A stretch of 64,000 nucleotides of DNA, taken from positions 33,393 to 97,392 of the forward strand of contig NW_003211161.1 of assembly GCF_000006405.1 (NCBI RefSeq). The letters are read 5' to 3'. The first letter of the stretch is position 1, and each line of letters begins with the position of its first letter. A model generated the notes under the pieces. That model saw only the letters and a list, made by a program, of their open reading frames with translations. It did not search any database and was not told the origin of the DNA. A program made the translations under genes and the position numbers. The stretch comes from Perkinsus marinus ATCC 50983 (Eukaryota; Perkinsozoa; Perkinsida; Perkinsidae). Below, in pieces: positions 15,716 to 35,588 of the stretch.

Positions 15716-15777
15716 TTTAGTGGTTATTCTGTCCGACTCTCATCCTAAAGGTCGCAGGTTCGAACTACGACGGGTCC
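15716..15777 (+). other. tRNA-like sequence
   Basis: TTTAGTGGTTATTCTGTCCG (box A-like) and GTCGCAGGTTCGAACTACGAC (T-arm-like, box B GGTTCGAAC) at tRNA-like spacing. It leads directly into the hairpin at 15773. Confidence 0.35.
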
Positions 15778-16085
15778 GTGCGGGGTCCCCACTTCAGTGG
15801 GGTGCACGGACCAATCAACCCTGCAGAATCGAACCCCCTCGAAGCAATGTAAAGTAGCGCGCGAGAGCGCATCAGAGAGTGGAGTAGCACTCTAATCTAC
15901 ATCGGAAAACTCAGAGCAGTGCGCACGGCTAACAGTGCGCACTCAAGCCAGTGGTACTGGCTCAACACCAATCTAGTAATAGTGGTAAGCCACCATCACG
16001 AGTGTGTCAGGCAGGATGATGCCGGACGACAACGCTAAGTCTGCCACAGCGTGGCAGGTAGACTAGCAACTGGCACCGCAGGTGA
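15773..16085 (+). other. Run of closely spaced small hairpins
   Basis: Perfect inverted repeats follow one another: GGTCCGTGC/GCACGGACC (15773-15812, enclosing CCCCAC/GTGGGG), GAGTG/CACTC, AGTGCGCAC/GTGCGCACT, GCCAGT/ACTGGC, GTGG/CCAC, GGCA/TGCC and CTGCCAC/GTGGCAG. There is no reading frame of note. The interval lies directly upstream of repeat copy 2. Confidence 0.6.
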
Positions 16086-16108
16086 CAGGATCAACCAGCA
16101 CACCGCTA

Positions 16109-17108
16109 GGTGGATCCCGCGCCGGTTTCGCCAAGAAACCCAACCCATCGCCTCAACAAAAATTGCGCGCGCTGGGGTGGGGGCCCCGGGCGCGCGCTAA
16201 AATCAAACCGGCTTTACCTGCGGCTAGAGTATATAGGCAAAATGAAGCCGTCTTCTCGCGACCTAGCCGTTCAATTGCGTTGAGTTTTAAATAGCATACG
16301 TAGCAGCCCGACACAGGTTGAGCACGCACTAGTCTGCGAGAATGTAACACAACAGTTTCGACAAGGAGCCGATTTAAAATGACCGCAAGTTCGAATCCCA
16401 GGCCTGACAATTTTAAATCTTTTATTCATGTCACAAAAACCTAGCGGAGCGATGCAGTCCGGCAAGATTCACGCAATTGTGCTGTCTCTGAAAGTCGTCT
16501 TCGCCCGATTCGTGCAGCTCAGTTGGTAGAGCGCCCGCCCATCATGCGAGAGTGCGCAGGTTCGATTCCCACGGTTGGCGTTTTTCATATATCTTCGTAA
16601 AACGTGTGTGTAATGTTGGATTGCTAACTTCAGTGTGATTTTATCTCCTATTATCTGTAAACAACGAATAACAACGTCGGATGATGTATATTTGTGTTGC
16701 AAAATATTAGCTCGATGTTTTGTCAAGAAAAACGTTGCGTCAGAACACCGTGCGATGTTTTGAGAGGCATCCATTTCCACGATTGCTAATTTCTCGTGTG
16801 TATCCAAAACGTGTCGAACATTTTCTTGAGATAAGTATGTAACAAAATATATTTAGTAAGTCTCGTTGGTAACCTATTATACCTGATATCACTTTTTCTC
16901 TAGCTCACCACGCCTGTACACTTACTTGGCGGTGCGGACGGATTTTCTGGCCGCCCCAGCAGCAGTAATGCCTTTATTTGCTTTTTCTCTTCGTCCGTTT
17001 CTTTCATCATATGAGAAGTACTGCTCCATAGGCCTCTAAGATTGAAATGTGCATCACAAGTTAATTGCTATCACGGCAGTGCCGTTTTGGCTTCGAAGAA
17101 GCACGCTT
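16109..17108 (+). repeat. 1.06-kb repeat unit, copy 2 (3' truncated)
   Basis: Same order of landmarks as copy 1, with the tRNA-like block at 16511-16574. It lacks about 62 bp at its end, so copy 3 begins straight after GCACGCTT. The 10-bp hairpin is broken here by substitutions and a small deletion. Confidence 0.85.
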
Positions 17109-18170
17109 GGTGGATCCCGCGCCGGTTTCGCCAAGAAACCCAACCTATCGCCTCAACAAAAATTGCGCGCGCTGGGGTGGGGGCCCCGGGCGCGCGCTAA
17201 AATCAAACCGGCTTTACCTGCGGCTAGAGTATATAGGCAAAATGAAGCCGTCTTCTCGCGACCTAGCCGTTCAATTGCGTTGAGGTTTAAATAGCATACG
17301 TAGCAGCCCGACTCAGGTTGAGCACGCACTAGTCTGCACAAATGTAACACAACAGTTTCGACAAGGAGCCGATTTAAAATGACCGCAAGTTCGAATCCCA
17401 GGCCTGACAGTTTTAAATCTTTTATACATGTCACAAAAACCTAGCGGAGCGATGCAGTCCAGCAAGATTCACGCAGTTGTGCTGTCTCTGAAAGTCGTCT
17501 CCGCCCGATCCGTGCAGCTCAGTTGGTAGAGCGCCCGCCCATTATGCGAGACTACGCAGGTTCGATTCCCACGGTTGGCGTTTTTCATATATCTTCGTAA
17601 AACGTGTACGTAATGTTGGATTGCTAACTTCAGTGTGATTTTATCCCTTATTATCTGTATACAACGAATAACAACGTCGGGTGATGTATATTTGTGTTGG
17701 ACAATATTAGCTCGATATCTTTTCGAGAAAGAAGATGTTGAGTCAGATGATTGTGCGATGTTGTAGAAGTATCCGTCTCCACGATTACTCACTTGTCGTA
17801 TGTATCAGGAACGTTTCTAATATTTCCTTTAGATATAAGTATGTAACACAATATAATGAGTAATTCTCGTTGGTAACCTATTATATCTGAATATCACTTT
17901 TTCTCTAGCTAACCAAGCCTGTACACTCACTTGGCGGTTCGGACAGATTCTCTGGCCGAACCGCCCCAGCAGCAGTAATGCCTTTATTTGCTTTTCCTCT
18001 TCGTCCGTTTCTTTCATCATATGAGAAGTACTGCTCCATAGGCCTCTAAGATTGAAATGTGCATCACAAGTTAGTTGCTATCACGGCGGTGCCGTTTTGG
18101 CTTCGAAGAAGCACGCTTGTGGCTCTCATTTTTCACCTAGCGTCCTCATATCTTCTCGCACCGGACCCTT
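17109..18170 (+). repeat. 1.06-kb repeat unit, copy 3
   Basis: Head-to-tail with copies 2 and 4. The tRNA-like block is at 17511-17574. The segment between about 17690 and 17830 is more diverged than in the other copies. Confidence 0.85.
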
Positions 18171-19232
18171 GGTGGATCCCGCGCCGGTTTCGCCAAGAAA
18201 CCCAACCCATCGCCTCAACAAAAATTGCGCGCGCTGGGGTGGGGGCCCCGGGCGCGCGCTAAAATCAAACCGGCTTTACCTGCGGCTAGAGTATATAGGC
18301 AAAATGAAGCCGTCTTCTCGCGACCTAGCCGTTCAATTTCGTTGAGGTTTAAATAGCATACGTAGCAGCCCGACACAGGTTGAGCACGCACTAGTCTGCA
18401 CAAATGTAACACAACAGTTTCGACAAGGAGCCGATTTAAAATGACCGCAAGTTCGAATCCCAGGCCTGACAATTTTAAATCTTTTATTCATGTCACAAAA
18501 ACCTAGCGGAGCGATGCAGTCCGGCAAGATTCACGCAATTGTGCTGTCTCTGAAAGTCGTCTTCGCCCGATCCGTGCAGCTCAGTTGGTAGAGCGCCCGC
18601 CCATCATGCGGGATTGCGCAGGTTCGATTCCCACGGTTGGCGTTTTTCATATAACCTCGTAAAACGTGTGTGTAATGTTGGATTGCTAACTTCAGTGTGA
18701 TTTTATCTCCTATTATCTGTAAACAACGAATAACAACGTCGGATGATGTATATTTGTGTTGGACAATATTAGCTCGATATTTTGTCAAGAAAAACGTTGC
18801 GTTGTCAGAACGCCGTGCGATGTTTTGAGAGGCATCCATTTCCACGATTGCTAATTTCTCGTGTGTATCCAAAACGTGTCGAACATTTCCTTTAGATATA
18901 AGTATGTAACACAATATAATGAGTAAGTCTCGTTGGTAACCTATTATATCTGAATATCACTTTTTCTCTAGCTAACCAAGCCTGTACATTACTTGGCGGT
19001 TCGGACAGATTTTCTGGCCGAACCGCCCCAGCAGCAGTAATGCCTTTATTTGCTTTTTCTCTTCGTCCGTTTCTTTCATCATATGAGAAGTACTGCTCCA
19101 TAGGCCTCTAAGATTGAAATGTGCATCACAAGTTAATTGCTATCACGGCAGTGCCGTTTTGGCTTCGAAGAAGCACGCTTGTGGCTCTCATTTTTCACCT
19201 AGCGTCCTCATACCTTCTCGCACCGGACCCTT
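18171..19232 (+). repeat. 1.06-kb repeat unit, copy 4
   Basis: Last unit of the three-copy tandem run. Its tRNA-like block (18573-18636) has the best anticodon stem of the set: CCCGC and GCGGG around the loop CCATCAT. It is followed by a different head (GGTGCAACCACCC). Confidence 0.85.
18573..18636 (+). ncRNA. tRNA-like Pol III block within repeat copy 4
   Basis: D-arm GCTC-AGTTGGTA-GAGC (box A), anticodon arm CCCGC-CCATCAT-GCGGG, and box B GGTTCGATTCC. The T-stem and acceptor do not pair as in a normal tRNA and position 33 is C rather than U. It is therefore read as a tRNA-derived promoter or SINE head, not a translating tRNA. The loop differs among copies (CCATTAT or CCATCAT). Confidence 0.5.
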
Positions 19233-20261
19233 GGTGCAACCACCCACTTCGGGAGACAAGAGTCTTCCGCGAGCCGAGTGTGGGGAGGGTACCACCTTTG
19301 GGCGAGCGCTAAAATCAACTTCCGGGCATCCCTGGCCGGAACCTATCGTGCTTCGGTTTGCCCATTGCTTACGCGATTTTCGCTGTCTACCGTCAGATTT
19401 CGTTCAAACTTCCCAAATACTCTCCAACACTCACAGAAAGAGGAAATCTACTCAAAAGACTTTTCTGTACGCATTGAGGCCTCTGAAATAACTTAAAAAC
19501 ATCGTTTTTTAGCCGTCTCTCGCCTTGCTCTCTTAGCTCGTTCCTGTCTCGTTTTGAGCAACTCACGTCTCCTGTGGAAATCCGGATCGCCCGGGCCGAG
19601 TGGAAATTGCTCGCTTACTCGTGCAAGAGCGCGCGCCCACTCACAACAGACAGTGTCACAAGAGACGGTTTAACGCAAATGCAGTCTCCTCGTGTAAGAT
19701 ACTGCGATTGGTGATTTTGTGATTCTTCTCTTTATATCTTTTACAGTGCGCCTCTTCCGATAAGCGCGCTGTAATTGGCAGTCTGCAAATCTCAAGTAGC
19801 TCTTGCAATAAGTGTGGATTCAGAATACGACGTTTTTGTCTACAAATAATGCCTCAAAGCCTTCTCGAAGGAGACATGCGCTATATCTGACATATGATTT
19901 CTCAGAGTGATCTCGTGGGAGTGTCTGGCGAAGTATCCTCACCATATCATTGTGCGGTTCAAGAGGATCCGCGAGGAGCCTAGACGAACCGCTTCTCCGA
20001 AAGCCTATTGCCTTATACACTTTTGTCAGTGGCGTTAGCGGGTGTACCGCATCTACGATGCGTCAACGTCTTGAACTGACGCAGTCAATGCTTCTGCTTC
20101 ATGGTAGTGAGGAGATGCCTGACTTTAGCACTTCCTCTCATGTACATAAGTACATGTTTTGCACTATCTACCGACTGCGCGGCTGGTATTCATTGTTCGG
20201 CGAGTCCGTTTGACAGAAATCGGAGACAAAAACGCCTGTAAAGGTAACCCCCCAGTCTCTT
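19233..20261. other. Interval between repeat copies 4 and 5, no gene seen
   Basis: The first ~100 bp form an alternative head (GGGGAGGGTACC, GGGCGAGCGCTAAAATCAA) similar in layout to the GC-rich head of the repeat. The rest contains only short frames. Confidence 0.4.
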
Positions 20262-21320
20262 GGTGGATCCCGCGCCGGTTTCGCCAAGAAACCCAACCCA
20301 TCGCCTTAACAAAATTGCGCGCGCTGGGGTGGGGGCCCCGGGCGCGCGCTAAAATCAAACCGGCTTTACCTGCGGCTAGAGTATATAGGCAATTTGAAAG
20401 CCTCTTTTCGCGACCTAGCCATTCAATTGCGTTGAGGTTTAAATAGCATACGTAGCAGCTCGACACAGGTTGAGCACGCACTAGTCTGCACAAATGTAAC
20501 ACAACAGTTTCGACAAGGAGCCGATTTAAAATGACCGCAAGTTCGAATCCCAGGCCTGACAATTTTAAATCTTTTATTCATGTCACAAACATCTAGCGGA
20601 GCGATGCAGTTCGGCAAGATTCACGCAATTGTGCTGTCTCTGAAAATCGTTTCCGCCCGATTCGTGCAGCTCAGTTGGTAGAGCGCCCGCCCATCATGCG
20701 AGAATGCGCAGGTTCGATTCCCACGGACCACGTTTTTCATGCAACTTCTTAAAACGTGTGTGTAATGTTGGATTGCTAACTTCAGTACGATCTTGTCTCC
20801 TACCGTTTGTATACAACGATTACCAACGTCGGATGATGTATATTTGTGTTGGACAATATTAGCTCGATATTTCGTCAAGAAAAACGTTGCGTTGTCAGAA
20901 CACCGTGCGATGTTTCGAGAGGCATCCATTTCCACGATTGCTAATTTCTCGTGTGTATCCAAAACGTGTCGAACATTTTCTTGAGATAAGTATGTAACAA
21001 AATATAATTAGTAAGTCTCGTTGGTAACCTATTATACCTGATATCACTTTTTCTCTAGCTCACCAAGCCTGTACACTTACTTGGCGGTTCGGACAGATTT
21101 TCTGGCCGAACCGCCCCAGCAGCAGTAATGCCTTTATTTGCTTTTCCTCTTCGTCCGTTTCTTTCATCATATGAGAAGTACTGCTCCATGGGCCTCTAAG
21201 ATTGAAATGTGCATCACAAGTTAATTGCTATCACGGCAGTGCCGCTTTGGCTTCGAAGAAGCACGCTCGTGGCTCTCATTTTTCACCTAGCGTCCTCATA
21301 CCTTCTCGCACCGGACCCTT
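20262..21320 (+). repeat. 1.06-kb repeat unit, copy 5
   Basis: Closest to copy 1 in the first third (GCAATTTGAAAGC). The tRNA-like block is at 20663-20726, with the usual trailing GGTTGGCG changed to GGACCACG. It is followed by another variant head with GGGGGAGGGGTCCCCGCGCG. Confidence 0.85.
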
Positions 21321-22119
21321 GTTCTTGGTGGACCTCTTTAGGCCAATATAGGCCAATACCTCCAAGCGGCGGGGGAGGGGTCCCCGCGCGTTTTCGTGCA
21401 GTTTTCCTGCAATTTGGATAACTATGCGGCAAATGAGCCCGTGGAGCCGATTTTTGCGTTTTACCGTCAGAATTCCTTCAGTATTCCCTTGAAGACAGAT
21501 GTTGTACTAGCTAAGAAAAATCACTAATAAAATGCCAAATCGACCGCAAGAATAGCGATAGAACAATGCGCGAATGTCGAAATGGCGCGCGCTTTTCAAA
21601 AAAATAATCGATTTGATAGCGTACAAACTCACAACGCATGATGGAAATGCGGAAGAAAAAGGTTTTCTAAGCCGTACTGGTCAAACAGCGTTTGCCGTCG
21701 ATTAGCTGAACTACTTCTAAGTGAAGCGTGATAAGAAATACTATAAGTCAAAGTCAATAATAGTTTGTGACTGATCATGATGTCTATAACATAGTTATGT
21801 TTGAGGATTGAGTTGTTTACTTAAAGATGCGTTGTGCAAGCTGTTGTTGGAAGTTTGAATTTGGCTGAATAGAGAAGAAGTGAGAATTACGCAAGTTTAA
21901 ATTATATATGCAATTAGTTACGTCATATAGACTCCATATTATGAATAAGGTTTGTGTTATTTGTAATTGTGAAGTGAGTCTGAATGTTGATCAAAGATGG
22001 AATGTGGTTTAATAACTTTGTCCTTTTATTTGTTCAATGAGCCGTTCCATATTGAATATATTTATCATGTAGTTTGTTGTTATGTTAGAGAATACACATA
22101 GTATTTTGAATCTGTCGCA
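21321..22119. other. Repeat head followed by AT-rich leader of the Helitron
   Basis: The first ~60 bp are a GC-rich variant head of the 1.06-kb repeat. From about 21735 the sequence becomes AT-rich and non-coding up to the ATG at 22120. No gene is seen. Confidence 0.4.
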
Positions 22120-25100
22120 ATGATTCCTTCCGTGCATTCCATTGAAGTAGCTAATCCGAGGATATATCAAGAACCAGCGGAGCGTACGGATGCTGCGAGG
22201 GAATGGAATGCTTTTCTGTTGCGTCATAGAGACCATATAAGGAGGAATTTAATGATAGGTAATTCTTATTGGGTATAGTGTTTCTTTAGTTTCGTTCGAT
22301 TCATATTAGTTCAAAATTATTGGACTAATGGTGTTTACATAATTGTACTGCTATGAGTACGATGGTTTATGATTCTTTGAAATGTTGATTATATTTTAAA
22401 GATTCTTTTATAACTTAGCAAGTTGATTCTGTATTTTACTATTGAGTGGTCATTACTCATAACTTATTAGTATTAGTAGTTTGTATTTTAGGTGAGAGAT
22501 ACGTCTTGGATGAACATGAGAGTTTAGAGTATTTTCGTGGTACAAATCCCGATGGTCATTGCTTTTTCCATTCTGTCATTGCATCATGTATTCCTGAGAG
22601 AACACTAAATGATGACAGAGATTACGGTATAGCAGTGCATCGTTGGGCGGCTGTTCAAATGGGTCGTCTAGTAGAAGAAGGTATTCTAGATTTTTCATTT
22701 TTAGCAGACTATTTGGGGGTTCAAGGAGGAAATGTTGCTGATGCTATCGAAATAGCACAAAGAGATTTTGCAAGACCAACAATACAGTTTACTCTGGCAC
22801 ATCTTATTAATAGACCTATTGTCTATGTTAGTAGACAGTCATTGACAGATGATACTATGCTTCCGACTGTTGGTGTGTATGTGCCAGATGATCCATATGG
22901 CGCTTCTTGTGAGCCTGTCTTCGTTGGTCATGAGCATTATCAATCTGCATCATCTCTAGATGGGGGTTCCGGTCATTATATTGTTTTGAGGCGTAGAAGT
23001 GTAGCACAAACTGCGGCTTCGGATTCACTAGCTAGAAGTGATATAAATGTTGTGTCAAATATAGGTGAGGGTTTGATGGAAAGGAGTACTGTTTCGAAGC
23101 CTATTATAGGTAATATACGAAGTGCACTTTCTGTTTCATAGTTATATTTTTTTCTTTTGAACAAAATAACAGTTAATGAATGTGTATAGGAGTGAGATGA
23201 TGAAGAATAAATTTGATGGAACTGCTGTCATTGTTTTAGTTAATGTCTTAGCTACTGTTGCTAATTGAAAGATGCTTATAGATTTGTTTCAGGCGCTCGT
23301 CCAGTACGTGATACTATGAAACCTTCCAAGCTTGGGAGCAGTAAGAAACGTAGTAAAAAGATAGAACGTGAGTGCAATCGTTGCCTAAATTGTGGAGGAT
23401 TTATGAACGAAGATGGGCAGTGTAAAAAATGTGATTCTCGTAAAAGATGTGGTAAAAAATGTAGAACTGTTCAGCCGGCAACTGTTGAGAATCCTGTATC
23501 TGTGCAATGTAGTAAGACACAGTATCCTGATAGTGATAGGAGTGAAAATGTCTCGCATGTGAAGTGTACTCCAAAGTTGTATAGTTTTTGTGCTAAGGAC
23601 GTGTTTTTCAATGATGTAAATTTTACAGTTATAACTGATAATGATATAATAATGTCGGAAAAAATATCGCATTGTGATAATTGTTTACGATGGTCGACGA
23701 AAAAGTATAAACTTTACTTTAAAAAAATGCGCGTATCTGAAATCATTTGTCGGAAATATTTATTGATTGATAGAAAAAACTTAAAATCTAAGGATAAAAA
23801 GGAATACTATTTTTGTGATGAGTGTTATTGCTATATATCTGGTATGAGGTATAAGGCTAGTTCATGGGGTGTAGCGTGGCCAAGTTTTATCGCATTCATT
23901 CTTGTAAAGATAGGCTTCGTACAAGTCTGGTCATGGATCCCAGTAGATTTGAGAATATCGTGGTTACCCTCTCGTAAGTTTTTTCATGAAGCGTTAAGGA
24001 ACGTTTCAATATTGACACCCACTCCGTATTTTGAGGATAAAACATATAATCGTGCAAAACTCTTGGATGCGCTAGAGAAAATGGAGGGTGCAAATTTGAG
24101 TCGTTGTTTAGATGAAAGTTGTGTAGCTGATGTTAGATGTTTTTGTGGTTCTCAAGAATTTCTCGAAGACTGTAGTCTTTTTTCCTTGCAGTACGGGTTG
24201 GTGCATGAGTATTCTAACATGCGTAAATTGGGTGTGTTGCTACGGGGAGATCGTTGTAATCGTGATTATCTCGCAGCGGCTCGTTTCGATTGGCTATATT
24301 CTTGGCTTTTTCTTGAAAAATGGAGGATAGGTCCTTGTGTAGTTGTCGATTCGCAGTATGGGTTATGCTTGCTTGTTTGTAAAGAGCATAGAAACGGTAG
24401 TTTATTCAGGCATGTTCATTTGGCATACAATCCCATACAGAAAAATAAGCCCCTTTTAATACCAGATAGGTTGGGTGGACTAGTATTAGCACCACAGATA
24501 GTAAAACCCCTTGTTAAAAAATATAATGTAAACACTTATGAGGTGTTACGTATGACTGGATCTTATAACGGTCTCAGCTCTTGTATGTTACAAACTCGAC
24601 GTAGGTGGGATATTACATCAAATGCATTGGCAGATTCTGAGAGGTTGCAATTTCATTGTCGAAATGATATCCGCAATCGTGTAGAGGAATTTTTCAAGAG
24701 TGGAGATATATCGCGTGAAGTATACGAGTCGTTTGTGAATGATGTACCATTATCTATCTGCGAAAAGGAACAAATATCATTTTGTGAGAAGTCTGCAACT
24801 GTTTTTGGGATTGACAATCTATTAGATTGTCGTAAGGCTTTATATGAAGGAAAATGTAATAGGAGGTATTGTGTTACTCGAGTAGTAGAAGATGGTGATA
24901 ATATTAGACGGATAAGATATAATTATCCGTGGCCATTGAGGTTATTAGAGGTTGTTGCAGGGTCTTTCCCGTTATCTTTCAATATAGTTAATAAAATTCG
25001 GGCGAATTCTTGTGAAACTTGTTCCGGTTTTTCTCATGTATGGTTGTTGTCCTTATTATTATCTACGGTTTCACATTTGTGGGGATTAGTGGTAGATCGT

Positions 25101-28100
25101 GCGATTTCTGATGAAAATGAGAATTGGGAGGGCCATTTACTAAGGTTCATTACAGTGAAAGTTTTGAAATTGAAAATTACTCCTTTTGGAAAGGACAATC
25201 CTTACAAAAGTGTTCTAGGAATTGATCAGTTAGAGGCTAAAATACGAAGTTCATTTAATGTTGGCAGTAGTGCTGAATGTAATGTAATATCATATTTAGG
25301 GTCTTTCCCAGATGTTTCTCAAAGATCTATAAGTAGTTTAGATGTACCTCAATTAGAAAGTTTATATGATGTAAATATATCAAGCAAAATATTGCTTATT
25401 AATCGCACTGATGCTAGTAGGATAAGTAAATGTGAAATAGCAAATGTGTTACGAATTGGGAGTAAATTGTATAGTTTACGGTACATAGGGTTTTCTCAAC
25501 GAAGTAGTAAATTTTCTAATGATGGTTTTCATGCCGAAAGTTGTACTATACCCCTGTGTGCGGTTGACAGAATTATTTACTACTCTTCTAATAGTGCTTT
25601 GTCGAAAATAGTCGAGGAAATCCCTGTTAGCATTAAGCAACATTGGACTGTATTATGCTATGAACTTGTCCAGAAACAGACTCTTGAGGAGTATAGAATT
25701 GGTTATATGCAGTCACTTGATAGTACAGCAATATTTTATTGTGTTAAGCACAGACTGCCTCTCGTTAGGGACATTCGGGAAAGTACCTGTTCTTGTTGTA
25801 TATTATTAGCGGAAGGAAATAAATGCGATCGAAAGAGTCATGTTAGATGTATATCAAGTTCGTGCCATATATGTTTATGCAAAGTGCATTATTTATATTA
25901 TCAAGATATCACTCAAGAAGTGCCCAATATAATATCACGTATTCCTGTTACTCCTCATTCAATTTCTTCGTCTGGTAGGAATTTTGATGGAACATGCGAG
26001 TCAGATTCCGATGTATGTACCGTGTCGGATGAGTCTATAATTGAAACGTCTTCTTTTTCTAGTGAGTCAGTTTTAGTCAACGATCGTGATAGTGATTCGG
26101 GTTGTAGTGAGTCTTCTATATATCAACTGAGTGATGTTGATCCTCTGGATTTAGTTGAACTGGATCGTATTGAAAACACTGATACATTTGTGAATGAAAT
26201 TGGTATTGTAGATCCTGAGGCAGTAAAGTACTCTATACCTCGCCATGCTGTTTTTAATATCGATTCGCAGATTCTTAAGAGAAATACGACTAGGATAAGT
26301 GGGAGTCTCGCGCAAAGGCGGTTTCTCTATTCATTCGTGTGTACAGATCGTGGCCGATCTTTGTCGTTAATTAATTTCGAAGCTGATGTCTTTCCATCTA
26401 TATTTTATATTCAAGGCATAGACGGTCTTTTTCCGGGTTCTATTCCGCAATTTCTCTACGATAGTGAGATGAGTAATCGATATTTCGGATTCGATGGGAT
26501 AGACACGATGTTAAGAACTAGAATAAAAGATGGCGCATCCTTGACGGGATGTGATCCGAGATATATTGGACACGCATTCGATGCGATAGTTAATTTAGAG
26601 TTACGTGGGTCTGATACTCGTTTAGTACAAAGTCGTGGGTTTGAACATTTAATTGGGTCGTATGGAAATAAAGTGAGTGAGAGTCGTATGAGCTTCGACA
26701 GTGTGGATTCGAGACGTAGAATTTGTGAGGTGGCGTCATTTACTAAAAAGTCTCCCGAGTTTTTTTACACACATACGGTAAGTATGAGACATCATCCTGG
26801 TGTTCGTTTAATATTTAAAGAGGCTGAACTATTAGGATATATTGATAGTGATAATGATTTATCGAGAATGAGGGATACTTCAATTGCTGTTCAACTCACT
26901 AGATCTGCTGAGAGAGCGGTCAGATATATTTGGGAGTATATTTTGAGAAGTCCAGAAAAACCGTTGGGCGAAGTAGAATCTTTGTGGTATAGATCCGAAT
27001 GGCAATCGGATGGTAATCATGCTGGGAATTTACCACATACACATGGTTTGATTAAATTAAAAGAGGGGACTCAAAATCTTAATGATTGTTTAGAGCGGAT
27101 AATATGTTCGAGTTCACGTTTGTTTAATAATAAGGAGTACTTGATGGAGATAGGGTTAATAGAATCGGAGTCCGACTACGAAGAGTTACGTGACCGGGCT
27201 AGTCGGGTTCAAAAACATGATTGTCGTGCAGCTAATTATCGATGTCACAGAATAGTTGGTGAGAATGAGTCGTCTCGTTGTAGGACACCACATTATCCAC
27301 CATCGGAGGAATATCGTTTCGTTGATTATACTCCTGAACACAGTGAATCTGCTTTAGAGTTGCTTATAAAGATAGGTCTGGCTCGTAGAAACTTGGAGGG
27401 TGATATTATTTGGAATGATCAGTTGATAGGGGGAAAATATTTTTATCCTGCTGATAAGTACGAGCATTTCATACCGACTAATAATCATCTATGGGCGTTA
27501 CATCGAAGTCAATGTAATCTTTTGTATTGCGATCAATATAGAAGAAGTAGATATATTGCGAAGTATATAGCTGCTTCAGAATCTAAAGCTGCAGTTTTTC
27601 TCAAAGTAGATAAATCGGATAATGTGATTGGGCCTCGAGGGGAAGGATTGCAATCGGTGCGTGCAGAAATTGGTCCTCGTGAAGGGTCTAAATATAGAAA
27701 TGCTGGTTCATATAAGAAAGGTCGTGAAACGGTAGGTCGTTTGAGTCCTTTTACAGAGATAGTTTATCACGTTCTGAAGCTGAAAACCTTATGTACTAAT
27801 GTAGAATTCATTAAACTTCCAAGTGTTCCGTTTGAAAGCAGAGGTGGTATTTATTTAGGAAAATCCCCAATTGTAGTTTCGCAGCAATCATCTGATTTAT
27901 CACATGGAAATCAACCTGAATGTATCAGATTGAGGTTTAATAAGGGGTTGCCATCGTGGAGACTGTTTACCGTGTCCCAAAGTATACTTTATAACGATCG
28001 TGCTACTTCTTCTGTGAGTGTAGATAAGTATACAGTTTTTTCTTTGAGACCTCCTGAATTAATGATAATTTCGTCACCAAATGATTATTTCCGATGGTTT

Positions 28101-30872
28101 GTACGTTCGCCTACCAAAGTTTCACAGTCAAAGAATTTTGATAATTCACTTAGTAACCCGTTGGAGTTTATGATTCAAGTGAATTTATCAGAGTCATATT
28201 TTGTAGATATGTTAGACCATGTCGTGTTCATTCGTCGAAATTGTATCAAAGCATGTGTGGAATTTTTGGAGAATATTACGATGGATATCATGCATTCAAT
28301 CCAGGAATTTATCATCGCTCGTCAACTTTTACATGATATATTTTTACCTTTGAGTAGTATTATTGCTGGTGTTTCATCGTCGGCTTCATCGGAATTTTAT
28401 CATAGATATGTTAAGGAAATAAGTGAACCAGTTTTGGTTAACAGTAATATATCGCCAATTAATCAATGTAAATTTCTTATTCATTTAGCATTAACATTAG
28501 GGCATTTCGAAACAGAATTAGACTTATTCAAAGGTCCCTCAATATTAGATGTGTTCGTGCGGTCTAAAATCATAGATAATGATTTCTCTACTGATTTTGA
28601 TGAAGAGCACATTTTTAGTGTATTACGAAAATATGTATTGACAGAACTTCTATATTATCCAGGTGGTGGAACCTTTACATTTGATTCGTATCTGGTTGCA
28701 GCTTACACATCCCTCCGAAATAGTTTGTTAGATGAGTCGTACGCATCTGATCTTCCTGGTGTTCTTTTGAGTGATATTTCGCAAAATGCTTCAACTGAAT
28801 TGCGTAAATTTATAGATGATACTAAATCATCTACCATACAAGCATGCTTGGCTGAGATCCATTTGATATCTCCCACTGAGAGGGAATTTAGTGAAGCCAC
28901 TCGTTTTAATCCTTTACAGTGGATACCTGTTGCTGATGAGTTTGGTGTATTAACTCAAACATCTGCAGTTGAACAAACTCTTGCACTTAACGATCTAATA
29001 ACTTATATCGATTCTTATGCTAATGTCACATCTGGTTTTAGTCGCTTTCCCGTGATCATCGGGAGTCCTGGAGTAGGAAAAACATCTCTACTAGTGAAGT
29101 TAGCTTTATATTGCATTGGACGTGGTTTATTAACCGTCTTTACCAGTCTTACAGCGGAAACATCATTACGTTTTGGTGGAATTCATTGCCATGCACTCCT
29201 ACCGATTCCGATTTCAAATCAATCGCGTTTTATAGATGTGGATCGAATGACTGAAAAGTGCATTTTTTCGTTGAGTCGTAATCCGAATAAAACAGCATAT
29301 TTAAAATGTATTAATGTTATATGTATAGAGGAATTGGGCCTTGTGAGTGCAGAAATTATCTCATTATTAGACAGAGTATTACGGGTTATCAGAGGATCTA
29401 CTTTACCTTTTGGGGGGGGTTGTGGTACTTGCTACTATGGATCCTTTCCAACTTCCTCCTGTGGAAGGGAGGCCTTTGTTGGTTTCACCTTTATTTCTCA
29501 CTATGTTTCGAATGGTAAAATTATCTTCTTATGTACGGTCAGCTACGGATCCGCGATTACAACGTATAAATGAAATTGGACGATTGCCTAATCTAGTAGA
29601 AAATCCATCGTTGATTGATGAATATTGTTCTATCGTAAGGGAGGGATGTAGGTTTGAATCTGATATTCACAATGTTCCACGTACCGTTTTGAGAGTAGTA
29701 GGAAAGAGAGTTGCGGAACAGGAAGCCATATTGACTCGGGAGAATGAGATGTTGAGAATTTTACCAGCGGATGAGGTTTATATATCTTTTTCAGTCGATA
29801 AGGAAACTATTTCGGAAGGTCTTAATTGGAAGAATGCGACAAATGAAACAATATATGGATTGAATAGAAAATGTCTTTCTCCTAGTAGATTAGTTTTGTA
29901 TAGGTATTGTATAATGCGTTTGACAGAAAATGATACTTCGAATAGAACATATTCTCAGGGTCAGTTGTGTGTGATCGAGTCTGTTCCATCGTGTGATCGT
30001 GGAAGTGTAGGAATACTTTTATCACCGCCTGGAAATCGTTCTCTCCCGGATGATAATGACTATAAAGCTGCGGGATGGCTACCTATATCTCTATCGTTTC
30101 CTAGCACGTCTAGAGACGTATATATTAGAAAAGGTTTATTAGGTCGCCGATTACAGTATCCACTAAACCGTTTGTGGCTATAACGGTGCATCGATCGATG
30201 GGATGTACACTTCCTTCTGTTTGTGCTAAATTAAGTTTAATTGACTCAAAAGATCATTTGTGGTTACGCTCGCAGTTATACACTCTCTTTTCTAGAGTAG
30301 AAAGGCTGGAAAATATCATACTCATTGGGAATATTACTTCCATTCTCGCAGTCATAAGGCATTTACTTGTTAAACCACAACAGTTTGATCAATATGTACA
30401 TGAAGTTTTGAAAAGCTTTGAATCGATCCAGCCACCAACGTATTTTTCGTCGTTAAACCAGAATGTATCAAATGTGAATTTAATAACTAGTTGGCCTTTT
30501 CATACGTCTACTTTACCCCTACCAGATACATCTAATATAGGTGGGTGTGTATATTTGTTGTGCAGTATGCGTAATAGTAATATATGTTATATTGGTCAAA
30601 CTACGTCTATTGTTCGGCGTATTCAAGAACATAATCGTCGACAAGGATCTAAATCAACGCGAGATCCTTATTTATTGCCGTGGATATGTGTGGCAATCAT
30701 CACGGGTTTTGATGCACCGGAAGCCCGACTGCATAGGCTTCGGGTTGAAAGGATGTGGAAAAATCAGAGATCTATTTTCGATTCGGTATTTCACATTATC
30801 GATTCGGGTCGAAGACTTGTATCATATTATTCGGACAGGGCTTTGGTTTTTCAACAAATAATGGAACCTTGA
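22120..30872 (+). CDS. Helitron transposase: OTU protease - zinc knuckles - HUH Rep - PIF1-like helicase - GIY-YIG nuclease (frame broken twice)
   Basis: Exons 22120-22258, 22492-23109 and 23293 onward join in frame; the splice at 23109/23293 fuses an OTU module to a 2,100-codon frame. Residues about 60-215 form an OTU cysteine protease with DGHC (Cys70) and GHY (His208). Next come Cys pairs (CNRC, CGGF, CKKC) near 23380-23460, a Helitron-N-like region (about 26300-26700), the HUH motif PHTH at 27033-27044, the downstream Tyr motif YIAKY near 27552, Walker A GSPGVGKTS at 29061-29087 and a Walker B-like IEELG near 29325. The frame breaks at the G8 run near 29410 and continues as VVVLATMDPFQLPPV. 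It breaks again near 30165, then continues to a C-terminal GIY-YIG module (VYLL, CYIGQT, RRIQEHN) from 30541. This copy is inferred to be inactive or mis-assembled at the two sites. Confidence 0.8.
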
Positions 30873-31070
30873 TGTTTGATATATATTTTAATTGCTCTAT
30901 TGTATTGTATTTGTAATATAATGCTTTATAGGCAGATAATGTTTACAGTGAGATGCATATGGTGTAGTTCATGGTGTAATGTATGTGTGTGTAATTATGT
31001 ACGTATTGTATCAAGTTGAGTTATCAATATGCAATTTATGTGAACATAATCTTAGTGTGTTCGCTATAGT

Positions 31071-31253
31071 ATGGAAGATATTGAGATATATAGTAAGTGT
31101 TATGAGCTTTGTGAACATTGTAAATTTTGTAGATGTTGCGAGTGTTATAAGTTAATCATTACTTCTATTAGCATCAATGACTATCTTCTTAGGATGTTGA
31201 GTTACAACATTGGAACGAAAATGTTCTTACCACTAGCTAATGCGTATACGTGA
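31071..31253 (+). CDS. Possible 60-residue Cys-rich ORF within the Helitron
   Basis: Starts at an ATG 198 bp after the transposase stop. It contains CYELCEHCKFCRCCECY, a spacing compatible with a small zinc-binding knuckle. Nothing else supports it, and short ORFs arise by chance in such AT-rich DNA. Confidence 0.2.
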   Translation: MEDIEIYSKCYELCEHCKFCRCCECYKLIITSISINDYLLRMLSYNIGTKMFLPLANAYT

Positions 31254-31984
31254 TAGTAATTTATTCAACACAGTAACCCATCCATTTGTTGGTTTATTAT
31301 ATTATGCGTAGGTCTAACTATTTGACCTTGTATGTTATGTAGTATATACTGTAGGTATTTCAAATGTGTCACTCGCACTGATACTATGTATGAGGTATTT
31401 GTGTTCTGAGTTCTTTCTACATCTATGACTAATTATTGAGCGTGTAGTAATGGTATTAACATACTTTGTTATAAGCTGATTGTGTATCAAGTGGTGAGGT
31501 TTTCAGGAAACGAAATACAGACCTTCAATGAAATGGCGACTTGTATGTAGGAAAGTTATATATGTTAAAGAATACGTGTAGCTGTATTTTTAAGGTAGCA
31601 TGATTTAATAAAATAGTGTTGTATTTTATGTAACCATTTCGAAAAGGTGTGTGAAATATAGGTACTAAGTGAAGTTCGTTATAGTATTTGTGGAGAGGTG
31701 GAAGGCAGTTTTGAAGATCGATTATATGGAAAGAGGAGAAGTATTCAATATAGTTAGTTTTAATAAACATGTTGATAGTATCATGGGTAATTGATGGAAT
31801 GTGGCACGATAAAGTTGCCGTGAATAATACTAGTTGCAGATGTAGTAGTTGTTATTGAGAATTTAATTATCAGACGTTGTTGAGTGTCTTACTATAATTG
31901 TATTATAAACAGTAAGGTATCGTAGTAATTATTGAATTGTGTTCGAGTATTGATAAATATTGCAAAAACTAATCTTTTGTAGAT

Positions 31985-32029
31985 GAGCCACACTGCGAGT
32001 AATACGCAGGGTTACTCGCAGGGTGGCTC
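31985..32029 (+). other. Strong 17-of-18-bp hairpin inside the Helitron island
   Basis: GAGCCAC A CTGCGAGTAA at 31985-32002 pairs with TTACTCGCAG G GTGGCTC at 32012-32029, one mismatch, with a 9-nt loop. It is the only GC-rich stretch in about 1.5 kb of AT-rich non-coding DNA. Helitrons carry a hairpin just before their 3' terminus. Confidence 0.7.
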
Positions 32030-32509
32030 CATAGAACAGTTTTGACTTTAGTTTAATTAAGTCGGCTAAATATATATTATAACACGTCGAGTTATACAAA
32101 TCGTGGTTGAATGACTGAATTGTGAATAACATGATGCATATAATAAAAAATGTGTTAACTATGTTACATAGTATATCAGCAACTGCAGAATATGAATCGT
32201 GAAGGATGAACGTATATTGCATAGTTTAAATACAATATATGTTTGGAGAGCAATATTGCTGTGAATAAATTTCAATGAGAATTGCAGCTTCTAATATGAA
32301 AGTGTGATTGTCTAATGTATTTGATAAAAGATAGAAAATGAATAAGAAAACGAATATGCAGAGAGTATTTGATGATATCATCTTTTCTATATTAGTGTAT
32401 GAGAAGTATAAGATGTGTGTAATAAGTCTTGTGATCAGGTATGTAGTAATTGTTAGACGAATGTAATGAATTATAAATGAAATATTAATTGTTAGTGATA
32501 TTCTTGAAT

Positions 32510-34832
32510 ATGTCTTTATCAGTCACTCATGTGCAAGAGTACAGGTCCATAACTCTAGAAGATGTTGTTAGAGGTCGGTCTTGCGATGGCTGTAGGTTAC
32601 CACTGAGGTTACTAAGTGTTAAGAAGTCAGAAAAAAATAATAGAACGTCGGTGTACACATTTCGTCGCGGATCTAGCCATGCAGCATTGACTACACCCGA
32701 TTATGATCGTATGTTTCTGTGTGGTGACGCGAGTGGGAGCGGATGTTGTGTTATTTTCACTCGTTCCAGTGATCTAACCAAAGTCCTGATACCTGAGGGC
32801 AGTAGTGTGTCCGTGGGACAGTTGATAGTCGCAGTTGAACCACGGTTTGTGAATCAATATTTGGATGAGAAGCAAGTTACTCCCGTACTACGTACGGTTT
32901 TACCATTGTTTTCTCTGGATGATGTTGATGAGCTTCCTGTCATTCCAATAGAATTACAAGCTTCATCTTTCGTTCACTTTTATTTAAAAAATGTGAAGCT
33001 TGATATTAGCAGTGTTCGTTTGATGTCCTCTTGTGGTGGATCCTTCTGCAATAGGCTTTATGCTCCAAACTCGTGTGGGTGTATTGTTAAACCTTCCAGA
33101 CCTTCTTTCGTATTAGAGGGAGACATAGATATCCAACAAGTTGATATTGGTGATGATGGTGATAATGATACCGGTTATGAATGTTTGAATGGTACTACAA
33201 TCAATGGTCTTCGTTTTACGAAGATATTCATTGACGAAAATGTATTGTCTATGGCTAGTTGGAAGTCTTTGGATCTTCAGCTAATCAAAGAAGCCTGTCG
33301 ATCCGTTCTCTTACAAATATCTGGATGGAATTTATCTGGTTGGACAAAAGCTGGATCAGAAACAGACGATCATCTGATAAATGAAGCTAGAAGCTTCCAT
33401 ATAGTTGATGCAGAACCCATTTATATTGATCAAGTACAGGCTGCATCAGCTAAATATACTGCACCAGTATCTGTGCCCATAGAAGGAACCGTAAAAGGTA
33501 AAAATTAAAATATAAATTATGTATATTATGGTAAAATTACGAGAAATGGCGAATAGCGTGTACAGTTTGAACTGGTTTATGAGCACGAGTTTGTTTCATG
33601 TGTGAAAACGTGTTTAGAAAATTATCTGCCTATCCCCGTTATGTCTTCTGTAGTATTTGATTCTTTAAATAATATCATGACTCATACTGTATGAGTAGGA
33701 GTAGAAATCCATTTTTCTGAGGTAATTGATGTAAGGTTTTACAATATTTTATCTTTGTTTTCAACCCACTCATCGGATATAGTTCAAAATGTGCTGAATT
33801 TTGGGTTAGGTTTGATTGTTTTTTTTGTACAGGCCGTCCTTCAGCTGCTCGCTCAACAGTTACTGAGGAAAGCGATGATTCTGGTGATGGACAACATGGT
33901 TCAGGAGTGGCTTCTCATCATAGATCAGGTAAATTTGACTGTGGAACAATAATAAAAATTACACTAGTAGTACTATCACTACGTAGGTCATAGTAGATAA
34001 ATAACTAACTTTCGGTGACATCTTTCGTGGAAAGAGAAGTTGATGGTTGTAGATTTGAATTACAATACGTGACTATTTTCATATAATGAATTTATCTTTC
34101 TAGTGTAAGGTATGCTTATGGGAGTATTATTATGGTTATAGTAATAAGTCCACTATATTGAGGTATTCATTTTCTATATCATAATTATGATTATGTGCTA
34201 CATAAAACTAGTGTTGTAATATCTGAGATTATGTTCGTCAAAATTATAATGAGAGCACAGTATCTTTTAAAAAAGCGAAATTTTTATTCATTCTTAGAAA
34301 TATGTCTATGCCTATCGCATGATGTAACATGTTCGTTATAAATGTTACTTTTTCGACGTGCTATTATTGGTAGTGCTCGTCTTGAGTATAAAATGTATAG
34401 AATCTAACATTGATTTGAATAACCATATCAACGCATGGCAAAGTTAGTTGATTAATTCTTCACTATAGTTGGACGTCTTTCTTCTACATTCGCCCCCTGT
34501 GTGGGGTATTTTCAATTGTAAATGCAGGTGGAAAGAAGACAAGAAAATCGTAGATTCGAGTGTGAGAAAAGCTGGAGATAACATATACATAATCTTTTAC
34601 AGTGGAGTCCTATCGTGGGATACCTTTGAGTATTAAATAAGTAAGATTAATGTGGTTTCTTCATTTATTGATGGATGTTTTGGTAGATATCGTATGAATG
34701 TCAAGTATTGAGTAGTTATTGTCACCTGATATGAATACCTAAAATAGATTAATACTAACTTGTTAATCCCTTGTAGCAGGAAGCAGAATTGCGTTATCTC
34801 AAGTAACATGTCAAGATGAAGATATTATTTAA
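32510..34832 (+). CDS. Putative RPA-like ssDNA-binding protein carried by the Helitron island
   Basis: Exons 32510-33497, 33833-33928 and 34780-34832 join in frame to 378 residues; introns of 335 and 851 nt. The start was set at ATG 32510, as the frame upstream opens only with non-ATG codons. Residues about 60-190 could be OB-fold beta strands. A block with Cys pairs (SCGGSFCNRLY, SCGCIVK) followed by a strand-rich region resembles the zinc ribbon inserted in the C-terminal OB fold of RPA70. Plant and some animal Helitrons carry RPA-like genes, which fits the neighbour. The C-terminal exons are Ser/His/Gly-rich. The assignment is tentative because identity is visible only at pattern level. 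Confidence 0.45.
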
Positions 34833-35588
34833 GTGTCTTAAGGAAAGTCCTTCCCTCATTGCGGTTTGATTTTGTAATGTATAGATTGTATTTTTGCGTG
34901 CCCAAGTTTATTTACTCATGTAATTAGTGAGTATATTGATGGTACTCTTCTGGAATATCTAGAAAGATGTTTATTCAGTCTTAGACTAAGATTTTAAATT
35001 TTTCTTACGCCTTCTTGCTTGACGTACCGCCGACTAGGTGACTATGCAAGTTCGAAGACAAATTAGAGTATAAGGCGCGTTTTCGTTGTAACATTAATTT
35101 CGGTCGAGCTACGAGATAAGTAGAAGGTAACGAATGCCCGCGACCCGGACCCAGGGATTGATAACACAAGTAAAATGAGCTTATGCGAAGCTTAACTTAT
35201 AGAAGCTATCCCATGAAGGAGGGTAGAACAGCTAGGCTAGACGCTAGCTACTATTGTCTCCACTATGATAGTGGCACTATCGCATAATAATTGTGTCGGC
35301 GGAGCGAAGTGGAGGGATGAGTATCATCACACCGAACGGATAGATCGAGTACAGATGCACCCTTCTGGTACCCTACCTACACTATTCATGCTGGCGAACA
35401 CAGAAACCTTTGATGTAACTGCATTAGTGATAGGATAGCAAGGGGACCAGAAGCAATAGAATCCTCACTGGCAAGAATTTAACGCGGCAACCTATATTTC
35501 AACGAGGTCTGGCTAGTGTCTCTACGACTTAGGAAGAAACAACTCCGTCGTACTCGAAACTCAATTCGTGCAGTTTATGAAAAAAATG
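34833..35588. other. Right flank of the Helitron island, no gene
   Basis: Sequence is AT-rich to about 35000, then balanced. No coding region was recognised. This interval probably contains the right junction of the element. Confidence 0.4.

Follow-up and report, generated by a model that had tools for sequence, protein, structure and literature searches.

Canonical Helitrons, such as Helraiser (7LCC), carry a Rep nuclease of the HUH type and a PIF1-type helicase, a combination referred to below as RepHel. Helentrons are described as having, C-terminal to the helicase, an AP-type endonuclease related to CR1 (PMC4067079), and some are reported to encode an OTU domain (PMC4067079, PMC6431247, PMC9741609). 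The Proto-Helentron of Phytophthora infestans, a Helentron-like protist RepHel in an element of ~14 kb, is presented as being without a C-terminal nuclease (PMC4067079). Tlr1 of Tetrahymena, a polinton-like element, is described as encoding a pPolB-SF1 helicase-GIY-YIG protein (PMC1564403, PMC3671162, PMC12721341). Here we describe a RepHel element of Perkinsus marinus ATCC 50983 whose transposase ends in a GIY-YIG nuclease domain. The element lies in a 64,000-nucleotide stretch, hereafter the window, which corresponds to positions 33393-97392 of contig C118 (NW_003211161.1) in a 54.46 Mb assembly of 347 contigs (C numbers denote these contigs). Coordinates are those of the window unless another source is named, and all features given in it are on the + strand. 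Named relatives of the element protein come from Perkinsus olseni and P. chesapeaki.

Our main reading, to which we give a probability of roughly 0.7, is that the element belongs to a deep and broad RepHel lineage in which an SLX1-type GIY-YIG nuclease is built into the C-terminus of the transposase, in the slot of the Helentron AP endonuclease, and nicks the strand that Rep does not cut. Like this element, Helentrons have a RepHel protein with a zinc-finger-like N-terminus, an OTU domain in some members and a nuclease fused to the C-terminal end of the helicase. However, that nuclease is of the AP type in Helentrons, which are compared here by their published description, and of the SLX1 type in the element. 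Pfam scans of the window, the intact copies and the relatives, and the precomputed Pfam lists of the profile matches, contain no AP endonuclease. Because of this absence the element is classed here as a RepHel rolling-circle transposon and not as a Helentron. The sequence-only reading of the window had suggested a different nuclease in the AP slot, one not known to have been described, and the first of these points held. No description of a RepHel-GIY-YIG protein was found in the open literature searched (subscription journals, preprint servers and Repbase being outside its scope), so that the fusion appears to be new, while the RepHel kind of transposon is itself known.

A GIY-YIG nuclease at the helicase end

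The first part of the Rep-helicase frame spans 23293-29415, within a stop-to-stop open reading frame (ORF) at 23265-29573. It contains a Cys-rich, zinc-knuckle-like stretch (23373-23462), the HUH motif of the Rep nuclease (H-T-H, 27027-27059), the Rep catalytic tyrosine pair Y-x3-Y (27546-27569) and the Walker A motif of a PIF1-like helicase (29058-29090). The helicase continues in a second frame (29413-30165, stop-to-stop ORF 29371-30183) and then in a third ORF (30129-30872, 247 aa) that holds both helicase motif VI (30258-30308) and the nuclease domain (30531-30869, core 30540-30764). Introns at the two breaks (29413-29417 and 30165-30171) are ruled out, as the aligned sequence is contiguous. 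This copy would therefore be either decayed or hit by assembly indels, the latter being possible at the first break because it falls in a run of G. Since motif VI sits in the same ORF, the GIY-YIG is not a separate gene.

Based on Pfam, the GIY-YIG domain (PF01541) is found in the third ORF with an E-value of 4.7e-10 and 40.1 bits, against a cut-off of 22.6. T5orf172, which we take to be a GIY-YIG-type family as well, matches the same residues with 20.9 bits (cut-off 20). All of the catalytic residues (Y, Y-x-G, R, H and E) are present. By profile and by predicted fold the domain is nearest to SLX1, and I-TevI and UvrC are clearly further; Penelope and LINE domains lie outside this comparison, and the VIA-align result speaks only to the families quoted. 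The predicted fold is that of the SLX1 nuclease domain. SLX1 and At-HIGLE share this fold and the GIY-YIG active-site residues with the element, but here the domain is fused to a transposase and no SLX4-like partner is known. With no RING or zinc C-terminal domain listed in the intact copies, it would work like SLX1 and is not a member of SLX1 proper. The sequence-only reading had placed a GIY-YIG module at the end of the helicase and had proposed to compare it with LINE/Penelope and Slx1 types; the module is where it was placed, and relative to I-TevI and UvrC it is nearest to SLX1.

The Rep and helicase parts of the window copy score low against the Pfam models. PIF1 is matched with an E-value of 9.9e-6 and 25.7 bits, slightly under the cut-off of 25.9, and Helitron_like_N with 13.8 bits against 28.9. 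The helicase profile nevertheless picks up PIF1 structures and the Helraiser helicase, and the residues of the HUH H-x-H and Y-x3-Y motifs are kept in 92 of 92 rows having the column, in an alignment of 94 rows that includes the window and canonical Helitrons. Whole proteins of the other copies in the genome reach 20.2-28.1 bits for Helitron_like_N, all under the cut-off; scored by frame, the copies on C214, C252 and C4 and one of those on C191 exceed it. Among relatives, P0006, P0009, P0014 and P0040 are above the cut-off and P0020 and P0030 below it. One further place in the genome, represented here by the fragment L001, has a strong Helitron_like_N match of 211 bits.

Copies, relatives and the OTU region

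A search of the genome with the GIY-YIG segment found nine places including the window, of which those on C54 and C135 are the same sequence. In five copies a single unbroken frame covers Rep, PIF1 and GIY-YIG: L034 (2586 aa), L035 (2641 aa), L036 (2669 aa), L037 (2659 aa) and L039 (2605 aa). All five exceed the cut-off of the PIF1 model PF05970 and three that of PF01541, with L035 (21.3 bits) and L037 (19.7 bits) slightly below 22.6. At L040 the GIY-YIG is in the following ORF; L041 is fragmented. Over 2561 aa, L036 shares 98.3% identity with P0002, a protein from another source, and L035 and L037 are 92% identical in DNA. Between the latter two, the 91-codon GIY-YIG segment shows 10 synonymous changes and 2 nonsynonymous ones (dN/dS 0.054, compared to 0.027 for Rep and 0.17 for the whole protein). 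Thus, the nuclease is under purifying selection in this one pair of copies.

Two profile searches, based on alignments that run from Rep to the end, gave 57 and 49 proteins. The pooled set consisted of 102 sequences, 91 P proteins and 11 entries from the P. marinus genome, with 11 bacterial helicases (P0047-P0057) left out. By the cut used, 23 of the 102 fall short of helicase motif V-VI and 79 were counted. A GIY-YIG domain of >50 bits is present in 69 of the 79, starting 54-82 residues (median 60) beyond motif V-VI. Four more (P0016, P0017, P0019 and P0031) have a weak, decayed domain, and six have none; of these six, P0003, P0098 and L040a stop within 31 residues of motif VI, and the Pfam lists of P0100-P0102 mark these three as canonical Helitrons. 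Both tyrosines, the YxG glycine, the arginine and the histidine are kept in all 70 strong domains (the separate ORF of L040 included) and the glutamate in 68, whereas the four decayed domains lost the YxG tyrosine and glycine, the arginine and the histidine. These four relatives offer a natural test of the need for the nuclease. The counts do not represent independent events, because L035 and L037, and L036 and P0002, are close relatives; L038, identical to L037, was left out.

For the phylogeny, rows with <60% coverage were removed (P0100-P0102, winA and L001 excepted at that step) and then ten more rows, L001 and partial proteins, which left 79 rows with no Helentron among them. In the FastTree phylogeny, 76 family rows split from P0100-P0102 with a local support of 100, and these three canonical Helitrons differ from the family in their position as well as in having no GIY-YIG. 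Rows without an intact GIY-YIG are scattered inside the family, and several of them are cut short. The simplest reading of this scatter is that the common ancestor would have had the GIY-YIG and that losses followed. Dozens of diverse proteins share the RepHel-GIY-YIG combination. The lineage is widespread in sequence data. The nuclease is apparently an old and regular part of it. The sequence-only reading had named two outcomes that would speak against it, namely that other copies end before the GIY-YIG or that the domain is a separate gene; the five intact copies carry the domain in one ORF, and the window has it together with motif VI in a single ORF. The search for other genomic copies that it had suggested yielded these five with Rep, PIF1 and GIY-YIG in that order.

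An N-terminal DG-x-C signature of OTU proteases occurs in 12 of the 102 sequences (P0006-P0013, P0019, P0031, P0040 and P0092). The Pfam OTU model gives P0040 27.2 bits, over the cut-off of 23.3, and P0009 21.1 bits, under it; in the seven relatives scanned singly, no other match reached an E-value of 0.05. P0009 is a single protein of 2729 aa with OTU at 203-305, Rep at 1407-1510, PIF1 at 2111-2271 and GIY-YIG at 2612-2685. In P0020 a Ulp1-type (C48) protease follows the GIY-YIG, a possible stand-in for OTU.

In the window, a putative first exon (22120-22258) of 46 codons and one base would end in phase 1 before a GT donor. It is followed by an OTU-like exon (22492-23109), with DGHCFFHSV at 22551-22577 and HYIVL at 22974. 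The putative GT-AG introns flanking this exon (22259-22491 and 23110-23292) have the same phase and are in frame, and it is solely across these two that the OTU would join Rep in frame. The Pfam Peptidase_C65 match is weak (E-value 0.09, 12.6 bits against a cut-off of 24.3), as is the best match in the PDB (E-value 0.046, OTUB1), although all four hits listed are OTU enzymes. A profile of nine relatives' OTUs gave the window exon 0.0 bits, rank 44 of 501 including 500 shuffles, a phmmer comparison with the relatives' OTUs gave nothing above shuffles, and the AlphaFold model failed (pLDDT 37.6). All 11 tree rows with the DG-x-C signature are within a 22-row set that holds the window (local support 98), in which the window branch is long and the fork open; the tree program warns of long branches there. 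Based on the motifs, the weak OTUB1-type matches and the tree position, the window would have an OTU at the level of motifs. Accordingly, of the N-terminal OTU protease claimed by the sequence-only reading the motifs stand and the family statistics are weak. Its order of OTU, zinc knuckles, Rep, PIF1 and GIY-YIG along one gene is right as an order, and P0009 has OTU, Rep, PIF1 and GIY-YIG in a single protein, but the window gene is not unbroken, with two putative introns and the two frame breaks.

The element and its surroundings

The element extends approximately from 21550 to 35080, a G-skewed block with a GC content of 0.36 compared to 0.46 outside it. The 5' limit is set by composition alone. 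The 3' limit, near 35080, is the point where homology with a segment of C155 (L045) resumes. This segment is 96.5-97% identical to the flanks in window 13800-35080, and 438 other bases replace ~21 kb that include the element; it would be a haplotype or a segmental copy without the insertion. The search with the flanks for the element ends gave the 3' limit and no precise termini or clean empty site, and the search with the 5' segment gave no precise termini.

A segment of at most ~540 bp with a tRNA-like stretch, identified by eye, has ~10 copies, six of them on C191. This repeated 5' segment is located at C191:29691-36704 and 61599-69617 and on C54, C135 and C146, and its start, GCTAGGTGGA, was found in C92 and C304 too, beside different sequence. 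The segment on C191 and C54 may be an independent repeat and not an element end. Directly upstream of the element, at 15733-21488, is a unit of ~1 kb present four times. These units have GGCGGTTCGG palindromes as well as B-box stretches resembling those of tRNAs (Rfam tRNA, 30.9 bits at 18570-18639).

The window element is an outlier in composition among the copies, with a GC content at third codon positions of 0.28 compared to 0.37-0.43, and its protein is 31-34% identical to the other seven long matches obtained with the Rep-helicase query. It would be a separate lineage, possibly taken up from another host.

The element encodes a second protein of 332 aa at 32510-33508, starting with the ATG at 32510. 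Relatives of it adjoin Rep-helicase copies, downstream on C4 and upstream on C214, and occur at further places on C12, C267 and C241, the last two matches containing stops. It has no Pfam or PDB match, and that it binds single strands is only a guess. Between the transposase and this second ORF lies a strong hairpin (31985-32029) with outer arms GAGCCAC and GTGGCTC and inner arms CTGCGAGTAA and TTACTCGCAG.

A conserved noncoding block of 154-167 nt with near-invariant stretches is found within ~600 nt downstream of the Rep-helicase stop (L034 8474-8627 (+), L035 582-748 (-), L037 100-266 (-), L039 411-570 (-) and L036 354-516 (-)). By eye, it has GGGTTACTC in common with the window hairpin. 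Its fold, from four copies, has 46 pairs, and in nine of these both partners are changed in one or more of the sequences. A further GTGAG/CTCAC pairing, seen by eye, would make a pseudoknot. There is no Rfam match at E-values up to 1 for six loci. A model of the block (R1), run on 11 sources, recovered the five training copies and one weak antisense match (19.2 bits, L039), with nothing in the window, L040, L041 or L042. Whether the block might be a terminal structure or a regulatory RNA is a question that its sequence raises.

A proposed role of the nuclease

SLX1-type enzymes are described as acting on branched DNA, flaps and forks (PMC8287910, PMC9071465). We therefore propose that the domain nicks the uncut strand at the branch formed during transposition. 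The sequence-only reading had likewise suggested that the module could cut the donor or target strand left by Rep, and such a cut is a proposal here too. Rep, a Y2-HUH nuclease, would nick one strand and hold its 5' end while the helicase peels off the nicked strand. The SLX1-type domain would then nick the resulting branched DNA on the strand that Rep leaves uncut, most likely at the target. This nick would yield a 3' end from which the single-stranded insertion could be copied into a double-stranded one. In the sub-lineage of the window, the N-terminal OTU may shield the protein from ubiquitin-driven turnover.

Several observations weigh against this proposal. The NCBIfam matches of the GIY-YIG are weak throughout (best E-value 6.3e-4) and mostly to group I intron endonucleases (six of seven, best E-value 0.0042), and Pfam lists no RING or zinc C-terminal domain in the five intact copies at E-values up to 1, while SLX1 is described as inactive without SLX4 (PMC8287910). 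Both profile queries held the GIY-YIG region, so that carriers may be favoured among the relatives, although candidate selection is said to use words from the first 500 residues. The three canonical Helitrons P0100-P0102 have 243-266 residues after motif VI and yet no GIY-YIG. The four relatives with decayed GIY-YIG domains keep their HUH, tyrosine-pair and Walker residues, and the cut may thus be dispensable or supplied in trans. Finally, dN/dS is readable in one close pair, the remaining pairs being weak or at or near saturation, as for L034-L039 (0.31 at dS 1.6).

The proposed nick could also be made at the donor, where the domain would trim a 5' flap or fork of the peeled leading strand or the 3' terminal hairpin and so aid circle release. 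The abstracts that describe SLX1 on flaps and forks (PMC8287910, PMC9071465) suit such a role, as does the adjoining helicase, which would make these structures. The Rep of canonical Helitrons can probably make both donor cuts, and on balance we consider a donor-side role somewhat unlikely. It is distinctly unlikely, in our view, that the domain is unneeded for transposition and serves as a DNA-binding tether, or as a resolvase or anti-defence module for clearing replication or recombination intermediates of the element. The remnant kept in place in the four relatives with decayed active sites fits this idea, but the active site is preserved in 70 strong domains save for two missing or changed glutamates, and the one close pair shows strong selection on the GIY-YIG segment.

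Two further explanations deny that the nuclease belongs to a rolling-circle transposase. An integrated virus or polinton-like element could encode a helicase-GIY-YIG protein, and Tlr1 does have an SF1 helicase followed by a C-terminal GIY-YIG in a mobile element. As described, however, Tlr1 has PolB where Rep sits here and a GIY-YIG that is called I-TevI-like. No PolB family is listed in the Pfam scans of the window, the intact copies and the relatives scanned, and a Y2-HUH Rep occupies that place. None of the five window ORFs scanned has a capsid family, none of the 36 stretches in viral contigs that matched a pattern used was a relative, and phages, searched with a 233-aa Rep stretch only, gave no match; we regard this origin as very improbable. 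Penelope-like elements are also mobile elements with a GIY-YIG nuclease, but by their description they are reverse-transcriptase elements whose GIY-YIG is tied to homing endonucleases in published clustering. The broken frame of the window copy could indicate a chance neighbour or artefact, with a GIY-YIG gene of its own lying behind a Helitron or the two having been joined in assembly. The ORF shared with motif VI and the sister copies refute a separate gene, and such an artefact is next to negligible because all five intact copies, dozens of relatives and a contig of other origin show the same fusion with similar spacing.

To our knowledge, how rolling-circle transposons convert a single-stranded into a double-stranded insertion is still open. 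Tentatively, and at somewhat less than even odds, the elements described here may be a major branch of their own among eukaryotic rolling-circle transposons, the third alongside Helitrons and Helentrons, one that took up an SLX1-type nuclease early and makes its own second-strand cut. If so, integration need not wait for host replication, and Helentrons, whose nuclease in that slot is unrelated, would have solved this step independently. The presence of two unrelated nucleases, AP-type and SLX1-type, at the same end of RepHel suggests that the second cut matters there. The SLX1-type nuclease is here tied to a motor and a Rep protein in place of SLX4, and the intact copies of the lineage offer an enzyme open to direct testing, whose active-site residues and class of DNA substrate are known.

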